Notes under the pieces: generated by a model
Seen by the model: only the letters and a program-made list of their open reading frames with translations
What the model was told of the DNA's origin: nothing
Databases searched by the model: none
Source: Thermodesulfovibrionales bacterium
GTDB taxonomy: Bacteria; Nitrospirota; Thermodesulfovibrionia; Thermodesulfovibrionales; JdFR-86
Direction: 5' to 3'
Assembly (NCBI GenBank): GCA_030682405.1
Contig: JAUXOF010000055.1
Coordinates: 1-52,312 of the forward strand
DNA: 52,312 bases
Shown: positions 33,789-39,100 of the stretch, piece after piece
Layout of the letters: each line of letters begins with the position of its first letter
Numbering within the stretch: the first letter of the stretch is position 1
Made by a program: the position numbers and the translations under genes

Positions 33789-36700
33789 TCATATTTTAAT
33801 CCTGTTGATAATTATCGTATCGTCGGAACCTGTCGGAGCGCTCACGAGCACTGCCTTGCTCTGATAGGCAGTGTCTTTTCCGTCGCTTACTGTGAGCGAT
33901 ATGGTGAATGTCCCTCCTGCCGTGGGATTCCAGCTTACCGACGTTCCGGTGCCGATTGTCGTGCTGTCCGCCTTCCATGTGTATGTGAGTGTGTCTCCGT
34001 CAGCGTCTGTTGCCGAGCCGGAGAGGGTTATGGCCACCCCCACGCTTGCGGTGCTCGGAACGCTGAATGAGGTTATCACAGGCGGATTGTTTGCGGGAAC
34101 TGAGACGCTCACCGCCCTGCTCTGAGAGGCAGTGTCTGTTCCGTCGCTTACCGTGAGCGTTATGGTGTAAGTGCCTGCGGATGCGGGAGTCCAGCTTATC
34201 GACGTGCCCGTGCCGATAGTGCCGAGGTTGTCAGTCCACATGTATGTGAGTGTGTCTCCGTCAGCGTCCGTTGCCGAGCCGGAGAGCGTGTATGTCGAGC
34301 CGACCAGAGCGGTGCTCGGAACGCCGAATAAGGTTATCACAGGCTTATTGTTTACCACGCTCACCGTCTTGCTCTGAGAGGCCGAGGCCTGTGAATCGCT
34401 CACATTGAGTGTGATTATGCAGGTTCCCGACGCCGGGGGCGCGGTCCATGTGGGGTTCTGCGCTGTTGTGCTTGAGAACGCCCCTGAGCAGTTGTCGCTC
34501 CAAGAGTATGTGAGGGCGTCGCCGTCAAAGTCATTGGCCGAAGAATAGAGCTGTACGGTTTTCTTCTTGGCCACGGGAGAGGGCGCGTTGATGCTCTGTA
34601 TCACCGGCGCCCTGTTCGCAAGAACGGTTATGTACGCATTCCTCGAAGCCGTCGCTCCGCCGGGGGAGTCGGTTACGAGCAGGGTGAGAGTGCAGGAACT
34701 CCCTGTGCCGGGCGCGGTCCATGTGGGGTTCTGCGCTACCGCGTTTGAGAACGCCCCTGAGCAGTTGTCGCTCCAACCGTATGTGAGGGTGTTGTTTATG
34801 TCAGGGTCGTAAGAATTAGAGGTGATTCTCGCAGATGCGTTCACTTTCATGAACATGGGAGAGAGTATGCTCGTGATTACGGGCGCCCTGTTGCCGATTT
34901 TTGAAACCTGTATGTCCACAGAGGCGGTGCCGGTTCCTCCCTGCCCGTCATTGGCGGTAATGGTCAGGCTGCACACTGTCCCGTTTGCGATTACGACCGG
35001 CGCGGTCCACTGGGGATACTGGCTGCTATAGGGGCTTGTTGTGTTGAACACCCCGCCGCAGGTATCGCTCCATGTGTATGTCAGGGGGTCATTGTCAGGG
35101 TCGGAACCCCATGAGGAAAGCGGAACCTTGCCTCCCTCGAAAACCCTCGTGTCCCACGCAGAGGCATACACGGAAGGGAGGTTGTTTGCGAGCGTGATGT
35201 CCTTCATCGTGACCACAGTGCCGGTGTCCGTGGATTCGTGGTATGGCTTCCCTGCGGCATTATTGCCCACCGCATTGGCTATGCCGTCAGCAATAAATGC
35301 CTTTTCAGTGCCCCCGAGTTTCATCGTATATTCCGTGTTGCAGGCGACATCAATGTCGTATGCGCCGTTATCGTCAGTGCGTTTCCATTTCTGGCCGTAC
35401 CATGTGTTGGGCTGACTAACGAATATAAGCCTGTCGTTTGCGGGTGCTGTGCCGCTCGGCTTATAGACAACCCCCTTCACCTTGCAGCTATAGGGGTCTG
35501 CTATCTGCAGGTTAAGCACATAACAGCCCTGGGCGTCCTTATTGGAATCGGACAGCGAATTCGATATTGTGGTCCAGCTCCATGTGAACGGGTTTGAATA
35601 ATTCAGCGTTGCATTCGGGTTGGAAAGCGCGTCGGTATATGTGAATTCTATATTGTATGAGCCGTTCTGCTTGGTAGTGCCGTAGGAGCTTCTGAAGCCG
35701 CCCTTCGTGGTCCCGCCCACCGTAAGGTCGGAGAGGTAAATATACTGCCCTTTAAGCGGCTCCATCGTGCCGTCCGATTTTACCGAATTCACGACGCCGG
35801 TTAGACAGCCCGTATTGATTGTGCCTATGGCCACGTAGTCCAAGTTCCACCAGTTGTTGGAGAAATCAAGGTCCGTGATGTCCGTCTGGTTCATAATCGC
35901 ATAGGGCAGGTTCAGAGCGGCGCAGTCGCCCACGTTTGACATCAACTCTGAGTCGTCTATCGTGCCGTCCTTCGGGTTGTTGTCAACGTAAAGCGTCGCG
36001 TTGCCTAACTTTCTCCACTTGCCGTCCCTCAGGAAATAAAAGCCGACCTGAACGCCGGGCTTCACGGTGTCTTCGTCTTTTATTATGAGGGTGCAGTTTG
36101 GTATCTGCCGTTTAACCTTATATGTGACCGTAGCGGAAGTCGAGATGCCGGAAACGGACGAGGTAGAGAGCTTAATCGGCTGCCCGTTCTGGTCCCTTAC
36201 GTCTATGAAATCGAACCCCGTAGAGATGAGCGTGTTCCCCGATGCGTCCACGTTAGAGGGGAACCTCCTTGAGTCGTCCTCGTTCGAGGGGTCGTAGTTG
36301 TTGGCGTTGACCTTGACGCTTGTAATATTTGCGGCGAGAAGCGCCCTTCTCGGCATGTCGAGCTGCCAGATGACGCTGCTTCCGTCCGCCGCCGCCGACT
36401 TTATCTCCGACGAATTGGTGAGAATCTGTTTCTCGCCCCTTGAGTTCTTTACTATGGCGATGCTTACGGTGTCGTCGCCGGAAGCGCTCGTGAAATTGCC
36501 CGCCTGCGCTATGGGAATGACCTTTGTCAGAACTGGGTCTATCTCGGCGAGAATGTTGAGGCCCTCAAGGTCGGAGAGCGAGCTGTACTTGAAAGTCTTT
36601 TCGTAGTGCGTGAAGCCGTCCGAAACCGCTGACACGGTTATGTAACCGCCGGTAGATACGACCTTGATATTGCCGTTGAAAGCGCCGCCGCTGATGGTGG

Positions 36701-36992
36701 TGGTCTGAACCTCATCCAGCAGATTCCCGCTCGTGTCGTACGACTTTATTGTCACCTTAGAGCCGATTAAAAAACTCGCCTCTGAGATCGCGCTCCCGCG
36801 CAGGCTGGCGCCCGACGAGGATGAGCCTCCTCCTCCGCTGCCCACCAATCCGGATATGCTGACCGACGAGGTGGACGAACCGGATGTAGCACCTCCGCCT
36901 CCGCCTCCTCCGCCTCCGCCGCAGGCGGCAAGAACAAGCGCCAGCGCGCTTGAAATGACTATTGCCAACAGATATTTCTTGCGAATCTTCAT
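33789..36992 (-). CDS. Large PKD/Ig-like repeat lipoprotein
   Basis: Starts at ATG 36992 with AGGAGGAATT upstream; an in-frame start at 37031 is less likely. The signal MKIRKKYLLAIVISSALALVLAAC gives the lipid Cys, followed by a Gly run and Ser/Gly-rich linker. The N-terminal 600 residues hold carboxypeptidase-regulatory-like beta domains. The C-terminal 450 residues hold five PKD-like domains marked by DGDxLTYxWxD (e.g. SDPDNDPLTYTWSD, ATDADGDTLTYMWTD). It is probably a surface adhesin or scaffold. The last two PKD units are very similar in DNA, suggesting recent duplication. Confidence 0.85.
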   Translation of the reverse strand: MKIRKKYLLAIVISSALALVLAACGGGGGGGGGGATSGSSTSSVSISGLVGSGGGGSSSSGASLRGSAISEASFLIGSKVTIKSYDTSGNLLDEVQTTTISGGAFNGNIKVVSTGGYITVSAVSDGFTHYEKTFKYSSLSDLEGLNILAEIDPVLTKVIPIAQAGNFTSASGDDTVSIAIVKNSRGEKQILTNSSEIKSAAADGSSVIWQLDMPRRALLAANITSVKVNANNYDPSNEDDSRRFPSNVDASGNTLISTGFDFIDVRDQNGQPIKLSTSSVSGISTSATVTYKVKRQIPNCTLIIKDEDTVKPGVQVGFYFLRDGKWRKLGNATLYVDNNPKDGTIDDSELMSNVGDCAALNLPYAIMNQTDITDLDFSNNWWNLDYVAIGTINTGCLTGVVNSVKSDGTMEPLKGQYIYLSDLTVGGTTKGGFRSSYGTTKQNGSYNIEFTYTDALSNPNATLNYSNPFTWSWTTISNSLSDSNKDAQGCYVLNLQIADPYSCKVKGVVYKPSGTAPANDRLIFVSQPNTWYGQKWKRTDDNGAYDIDVACNTEYTMKLGGTEKAFIADGIANAVGNNAAGKPYHESTDTGTVVTMKDITLANNLPSVYASAWDTRVFEGGKVPLSSWGSDPDNDPLTYTWSDTCGGVFNTTSPYSSQYPQWTAPVVIANGTVCSLTITANDGQGGTGTASVDIQVSKIGNRAPVITSILSPMFMKVNASARITSNSYDPDINNTLTYGWSDNCSGAFSNAVAQNPTWTAPGTGSSCTLTLLVTDSPGGATASRNAYITVLANRAPVIQSINAPSPVAKKKTVQLYSSANDFDGDALTYSWSDNCSGAFSSTTAQNPTWTAPPASGTCIITLNVSDSQASASQSKTVSVVNNKPVITLFGVPSTALVGSTYTLSGSATDADGDTLTYMWTDNLGTIGTGTSISWTPASAGTYTITLTVSDGTDTASQSRAVSVSVPANNPPVITSFSVPSTASVGVAITLSGSATDADGDTLTYTWKADSTTIGTGTSVSWNPTAGGTFTISLTVSDGKDTAYQSKAVLVSAPTGSDDTIIINRIKI

Positions 36993-37195
36993 AATTCCTC
37001 CTTTTCTGCTTTGCTGCTTATTCCTAAACATTTAATTCTTATCCCTATAACTTTTATTCCTACAACATTTAACTAACGAATAACTAACGAAAGACCCATG
37101 TATCTGTAAAATGAAAGACCATGGACATGTTTATTGAAAGTTTATCACCTGAACAACCCCCTGTCAAGGGAATATTCCCGCAATTATTTCCGCAA

Positions 37196-38901: not shown

Positions 38902-38930
38902 TTGACAACCCCCCGTGTCCATGATATATT
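38902..38930 (+). promoter_or_regulatory. Near-consensus promoter of the 28-codon gene
   Basis: TTGACA (38902-38907), exactly 17 nt, TATATT (38925-38930). The predicted start is near 38937, leaving a 24-nt leader with GGAGG at 38951-38955. Confidence 0.65.
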
Positions 38931-38960
38931 GAATTGTAAATTTCAAAAAAGGAGGTCTCT

Positions 38961-39047
38961 ATGTCCTGCAAACCGAAGGGCGCGCCGTGCGGAACGGAAA
39001 AACCCGCAACCAAGAAGACCGCACCGAAAAAGACGAAGAAAAAGTAG
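38961..39047 (+). CDS. 28-residue Lys-rich small protein with its own promoter and terminator
   Basis: A short open frame not overlapping any other gene. It begins MSCKPKGAPCGTEKP and ends with a run of Lys, Thr and Pro (APKKTKKK). It has two Cys and about ten Lys. A near-consensus promoter, a strong Shine-Dalgarno (AAAGGAGG, 5 nt before the ATG) and a stem-loop terminator frame it as a compact monocistronic unit of about 160 nt. The basic tail resembles those of small nucleic-acid-binding or histone H1-like peptides. The paired Cys could bind metal. Function is unknown, and the transcript could also act as an RNA. Confidence 0.6.
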   Translation: MSCKPKGAPCGTEKPATKKTAPKKTKKK

Positions 39048-39061
39048 GCTGTCCTGCTCTG

Positions 39062-39100
39062 AAAAGCGGGCTGTAGATAATCCCTGCAGCCTGCTTTTTT
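39062..39100 (+). terminator. Intrinsic terminator after the 28-codon gene
   Basis: AAAAGCGGGCTGTAG pairs with CTGCAGCCTGCTTTTTT through a stem that is continuous if two G-U pairs are allowed. Six T residues follow. Confidence 0.75.

Follow-up and report, generated by a model that had tools for sequence, protein, structure and literature searches.

A conserved 28-codon gene for a lysine-rich peptide with a Cys/His head in Thermodesulfovibrionales

A short gene unit and its signals

The window, that is, the whole stretch of 52,312 nucleotides analysed from contig JAUXOF010000055.1 of a Thermodesulfovibrionales bacterium, contains at 38902-39100 a gene of 28 codons that lies between its own promoter and an intrinsic terminator (Table 1). 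An earlier note had pointed to a near-consensus promoter, a strong Shine-Dalgarno sequence, a short frame and a terminator within 200 bp, and all of these can be read directly from the DNA. The promoter agrees with the consensus at 11 of 12 positions (scan), and the 17-nt spacer between its -35 and -10 elements carries the extended -10 (TGATATATT). With the predicted start placed 7 nt past the -10 element, the distance to the terminator is consistent with the RNA of roughly 160 nt that had been proposed. The terminator hairpin has a folding energy of -26.3 kcal/mol (z -5.6), which none of 200 shuffles equalled. It is absent from the list produced by a simple terminator scan of the window, presumably because A-T pairs carry the stem into the T run.

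Table 1. Features of the peptide gene unit in the window.
Feature	Position	Strand	Basis
-35 element TTGACA	38902..38907	+	direct reading and promoter scan
Extended -10 element TG-A-TATATT (TG 38922-38923, TATATT 38925-38930)	38922..38930	+	reading and scan
Predicted transcript, about 164 nt	38937..39100	+	inferred from promoter and terminator positions
Shine-Dalgarno AGGAGG, 5 nt 5' of ATG	38950..38955	+	reading; kept in relatives
28-codon gene MSCKPKGAPCGTEKPATKKTAPKKTKKK, ATG 38961, stop TAG	38961..39047	+	ORF list; homologues; pN/pS
Head M-S-C-K-P-K-G-A-P-C-G (Cys3, Lys4, Cys10)	38961..38993	+	alignments A2, A3
Lys/Thr/Pro/Ala tail, length varies among relatives	38994..39044	+	alignment, peptides of relatives
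Intrinsic terminator, 16-bp stem 39061-39076/39084-39099, loop 7, T6 39095-39100	39061..39100	+	folding

The extended -10 promoter pattern has a single exact match in the window; allowing as many as 2 mismatches gives 2 matches, where 0.25 would be expected. Across the whole 2.0-Mb genome, TTGACA-N14-TGATATATTGAA gave 5 matches at up to 3 mismatches (reversed control, 2), and the sole match with fewer than 2 mismatches is the promoter of the peptide gene, which is itself present in one copy in its own genome (protein search). The 28-codon frame is overlapped in the ORF list by frames of 92 aa (+) and 89 aa (-). Neighbouring genes in the window encode a type II secretion C protein, a Crp-like regulator, a class-V aminotransferase, which we read as being of the cysteine-desulfurase type, and a PHP protein. 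A second sigma-70-like site (TTGACA-17-TAAACT with a TG extension, 37139-37167, minus strand) is found upstream of a lipoprotein gene. This gene (33789-37031, minus strand) encodes a lipoprotein of 1080 aa with PKD/Ig domains (Pfam), in which ten glycines immediately follow the lipobox cysteine (LAACGGGGGGGGGG).

Distribution and genomic context among relatives

Relatives were searched for the MSCKPKG start, as the earlier note had advised, and clear homologues came out of a protein search covering 176 genomes from the same order. Members are found in 63 of these 176 sampled Thermodesulfovibrionales (Nitrospirota) genomes and in 8 of 13 families (f1, f2, f4, f5, f8, f10, f12 and f13); a further genome of the same class (G315) lies outside the order and brings the number with frame homologues to 64. 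No member was detected in families f3, f6, f7, f9 and f11 of the 176-genome order sample. The family of the window itself has the peptide gene in 2 of 6 sampled genomes, with none detected in the other 4, and the distribution is thus patchy. One copy per genome is the rule (profile search, 176 genomes). The view that chance was an unlikely source of these signals is borne out, since the frame, the promoter and the Shine-Dalgarno sequence are kept in dozens of genomes; the frame was neither lost from a retained RNA nor missing along with it.

The count of 63 combines profile matches, DNA pattern matches and members read from DNA-similarity and further pattern searches. Profile A2, built from 32 sequences, matched 35 of the 176 order genomes at E<=0.01. 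A DNA pattern consisting of a Shine-Dalgarno sequence, ATG-NCN-TGY-AAR and an AAR-AAR-TAR end matched 32, and its reversed form none. In a phylum sample of 395 genomes the profile and the pattern gave 26 matches each, again with 0 for the reversed pattern, and the only match outside the order in both searches was G315. A looser pattern returned mostly chance matches plus 4 new members, while each of the 3 matches of a further pattern search was read, giving 2 members and one locus (L256) that was rejected. G018 and others were missed by profile A2 and caught only via DNA similarity or pattern, and some genomes in which no member was detected may hold diverged copies.

In a collection of named genomes, 25 of 40 matched stretches carry the peptide, and all 25 are titled Nitrospirae, Nitrospirota, Nitrospiraceae, Nitrospira or Thermodesulfovibrio(nales); an example is JAGUWT010000211.1 of Thermodesulfovibrionales bacterium DeMMO4_11. 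The remaining 15 stretches (Actinobacteria, Desulfobacterales, Nitrosomonas and others) encode different or longer proteins, or hold very short frames, and were set aside. The pattern used here required a second Cys with Gly, so the result outside the phylum applies to peptides of that form and not to the CKPGH branch described below.

Upstream DNA was long enough for comparison in 59 members, of which 46 match TTGACA in at least 5 of 6 positions and also have a TG-extended -10 element (average in shuffles, 1.3). GAA often stands directly 3' of the -10 element in relatives, and the distance from the -10 element to the ATG is 24-50 nt, mostly 28-38 nt. A script that overlooked some visible hairpins recorded terminator-like ones for 27 of 60 members (shuffles, 3.2); some members outside the 27 may be without a terminator. 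The promoter, the ribosome site and often the terminator travel with the gene, and the neighbours and the sequence of the 3' RNA do not. The promoter stretch ATGATATATTGAATTATATATT also occurs twice in a genome of family f9 (L013 1501-1525, G070:C15; and G070:C6:4081-4105). The L013 copy has no peptide gene behind it, and other strong promoters in the order may share the motif.

Flanking regions were clustered for 37 loci, mainly profile matches, plus G018 (found by DNA similarity) and G315. Conserved neighbours occur mainly within families (cluster 2, for example, is present in 12 loci, all of them f13), and no partner gene is shared among the 37 regions. Inference of the operon type was therefore dropped, as was functional linkage by neighbourhood, given that neighbours are not shared between families. 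Conservation of the gene's own promoter and Shine-Dalgarno sequence amid varied neighbours supports the earlier description of a monocistronic unit. This state need not hold everywhere, because each of the 3 members in family f4 (L172, L173, L255) has the gene immediately after tRNA-Ala(GGC), where it may be linked to translation. At these f4 loci, where tRNA-Ser and tRNA-Pro are also nearby, the peptide gene is MACKGKCGTGKTKGKEADKGTKKK-like with acidic tail residues.

Selection on the frame and composition of the peptide

In 19 independent pairs of equal-length members, pN was 0.058 and pS 0.378, giving a pN/pS of 0.153 (bootstrap 95% interval 0.11-0.19). When the same base changes were placed at random, the ratio was 0.64 +/- 0.09 with a minimum of 0.42 in 500 trials. 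Differences at codon positions 1, 2 and 3 numbered 37, 24 and 123. For the same pairs, mean identity is 88% in the frame as against 60% over the 80 nt past the stop and, together with the selection, this indicates that the protein has been kept rather than the RNA. The proposal of a translated Lys-rich peptide thus holds, with a conserved frame under purifying selection, and judged from these comparisons of sequence 38961..39047 is almost certainly a real protein gene. A recurrent, selected microprotein family is thereby added to Thermodesulfovibrionia, a class with few cultivated members.

The members comprise 57 distinct peptides of 22-44 aa with net charges of +7 to +23. Their 1519 residues include 582 Lys and 2 Arg, and no Leu, Phe, Trp or Tyr. 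The consensus is M-[A/S/P/T]-C-K, then a second Cys and/or His, then a tail of Lys, Ala, Thr and Pro. All 57 have Cys3; two early Cys, as first described, are present in 52, while the other 5 have a single Cys with His instead, in residues 5-9. In 13 peptides both a second Cys and the His are found. Between 3 and 10 residues separate the two Cys, and two branches can be recognised, CKxKGxPCGT and CKPGHK.

The extraction filter and the DNA patterns require ATG (another start in the looser pattern) followed by NCN-TGY-AAR, and Cys3, Lys4 and A/S/P/T at position 2 are therefore partly present by construction. Profile A2 was itself built from members with such residues. All of the 37 flanking regions gave a peptide under the same filter, so there was no match among them without the filter residues. 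Neither the filter nor the first and the looser DNA pattern called for the second Cys or His.

Conservation is higher in the head than in the tail, and the head may thus carry the main function, a point against the tail-centred reading favoured below. Tails consist of runs such as KKTAKK and in a few members are expanded into KKKxx repeats. Long tails are found in four f2 members, L217 (KKKVVKKKAVKKKVAKKK), L220, L221 and L224, the first three of which have tails of the KKKVVKKKAVKKK type. Three f4 members have acidic tail residues (GKEADKGTKKK). A short-tail branch in f5 is MACKxGxKxSxCGTKKTAxKKKK-like (L044/G068, L007/G050, L072/G059, L111/G041, L157/G021, L252/G009). A Desulfobacterales protein of 78 aa (L076, about 355-590; L093, reverse strand) starts with MACKSKSCGT, followed by an apparent winged-helix domain. 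A similar Cys-Lys head would here, perhaps by convergence, sit on a protein that probably binds DNA.

The 57 members have no significant match in Pfam (best E 0.038, 1 member) or NCBIfam (best E 0.29, 2 members), and the family is one without a match in either; the window member hits 0 families of both. One or two of the 57 weakly match three unnamed PHROGs families, with a best E of 0.006, a weak signal given the low-complexity tails; the window member has no PHROGs match. A profile search against PDB chains, ribosome chains included, returned nothing at E<=10, and the strings MACKSKG and MACKPGHK were absent from open-licence PMC full texts. Papers of that collection that came up for small proteins of this lineage concern CydX and ribosomal protein trees. 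The GMSC catalogue is described as admitting ORFs from 30 nt, and its smORF families are likewise predicted without annotation (PMC11364881). Sequence catalogues of this kind may hold unannotated members of the present family.

Candidate functions of the peptide

We suggest, at roughly an even chance, that the product is a disordered polycation that binds DNA, RNA or polyphosphate through its tail and whose head binds metal or dimerises, making it a small condensing peptide associated with the nucleoid or with RNA. Nucleic-acid or metal binding, as put forward in the earlier note, is plausible. With its strong promoter and ribosome site, the stand-alone gene would provide a short, intrinsically disordered polycation; the tail is taken as flexible because a chain that lacks hydrophobic residues is not likely to fold around a core. 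Its Lys would bind polyanions by charge, as histone-H1-like tails do. Residues of the A/S/P/T kind at position 2 permit removal of Met, which would leave an A/S/P/T-Cys-Lys terminus followed by the second Cys and/or His. The head might then bind a metal ion or link two molecules, so that the peptide could cross-link a polyanion or couple it to redox or metal state. Metal ligands typically show such interchange of Cys and His, and members with a single Cys would still allow a dimer held by one disulfide. If the tail does serve nucleic acid and the head metal, these would be among the smallest stand-alone bacterial proteins with a two-part design.

The composition of the 57 peptides agrees with that of an H1-like tail, namely Lys with Ala, Pro and Thr and no hydrophobic residues. 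The KPAA-repeat H1-like tail of AlgP has been described in such terms; fragments of it bind DNA, and the Lys-rich tail is required for the spacing of polyphosphate granules (PMC9239181). Such binding by the AlgP tail, together with the Cys/His interchange, suggests a peptide that binds polyanions and has a head for metal binding or dimerisation. AlgP, PhaF and Hc2 likewise have disordered Lys/Ala/Pro/Thr tails, and the Hc2 of Chlamydia is described as varying by Lys-rich pentamers (PMC2848022), with short Lys repeats seen here in a few members. In contrast to the present peptides with their Cys/His head, these proteins are long (the AlgP repeat region is given as 154 aa; PMC9239181) and AlgP has another domain. 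The resemblance is one of composition, a comparison that does not establish sequence homology. Against a polycation, the f4 tails with their acidic residues would make a poor one; against a condensing peptide stand the patchy distribution and the lack of a functional clue from genome neighbours.

Lineage-specific ribosomal proteins can be small and basic, bTHX being an example. A product of this type, filling an rRNA pocket or binding tRNA or rRNA like bTHX, bS22, bL37 or bL38, is an unlikely alternative to the polyanion-binding peptide. Small size, basicity, a strong promoter and Shine-Dalgarno sequence, and the position behind tRNA-Ala in f4 are all in keeping with it. In the account of the Borrelia ribosome, bS22 and bL38 are small, basic and unannotated; bS22, very basic and missing from the genome annotation, was found by cryo-EM, and very small, very basic proteins such as bS22, bL37 and bL38 are likewise easily missed (PMC10618245). 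However, bS22 is helical and rich in Lys and Arg, which make up 61% of its residues (PMC10618245), whereas Arg is nearly absent here and the tail, low in complexity, varies in length. The peptide also went undetected in, or is missing from, 113 of 176 genomes, and its profile matched none of the PDB ribosome chains at E<=10.

The nickel protein CooT, which has an N-terminal Cys, is left out of the comparison; the hook motif of Ni-SOD is HCxxPCGxY. A metal-handling peptide, in which the free X-Cys-Lys terminus and His or Cys chelate Ni, Cu or Zn like the Ni-SOD hook while the tail localises it, is somewhat less probable again. As in that hook, the Cys would be at mature position 2, with a PCG motif in many members and a free N-terminus expected; the CKPGH branch has His at mature position 6. 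The motif itself is not reproduced, as the first residue is A/S/P/T, the spacing differs and both His1 and Tyr9 are absent. The Ni-SOD ligands are reported as His1, Cys2 and Cys6, but a heptapeptide with Ala at position 1, ACDLPCG, is reported to degrade superoxide with Ni at 1.2 x 10^6 per M per s, and N-terminal acetylation abolishes the activity of a His1 model peptide (PMC5722923). The mature A-C-K-S-K-G-P-C-G of many relatives resembles this heptapeptide. Unlike Ni-SOD as described in that source (PMC5722923), the peptides have no SOD domain, and their wider, variable Cys spacing leaves no fixed metal site; no metal-gene neighbours were recognised in the flanking regions or the window. 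A redox version, in which the amine, amide and thiolate of X-Cys-Lys plus His or Cys coordinate Ni (or Cu) while the polylysine tail keeps the site on DNA or RNA, appears improbable. It would amount to a genome-tethered device of 22-30 residues for scavenging superoxide or metal, made from a stand-alone, strongly expressed gene.

Small size, cationic character and a stand-alone gene would also suit a secreted antimicrobial peptide or the toxin of a toxin-antitoxin pair. Both are very improbable for a product that has no signal or leader and no hydrophobic or amphipathic residues, with no partner gene kept alongside and usually one copy per genome. Hardly more credible, and if anything slightly less so, is a regulatory RNA or leader peptide that works through the RNA or through being translated rather than through its product. 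The short transcript closing in a terminator fits such a role and codon bias may be involved, yet selection acts at the protein level, the 3' RNA diverges, the downstream gene and its orientation are inconsistent, and Rfam gave 0 matches in the window at the gathering score. A chance ORF between chance signals, conceivable when the surrounding 4 kb contain 47 ORFs of 25 aa or more, has a probability close to nil and is refuted by conservation, with frame homologues in 64 genomes, most with promoter and Shine-Dalgarno sequence, and by the absence of matches to the reversed pattern. A gene of 28 codons was in this case recognisable from raw sequence signals and was then confirmed by evolution.
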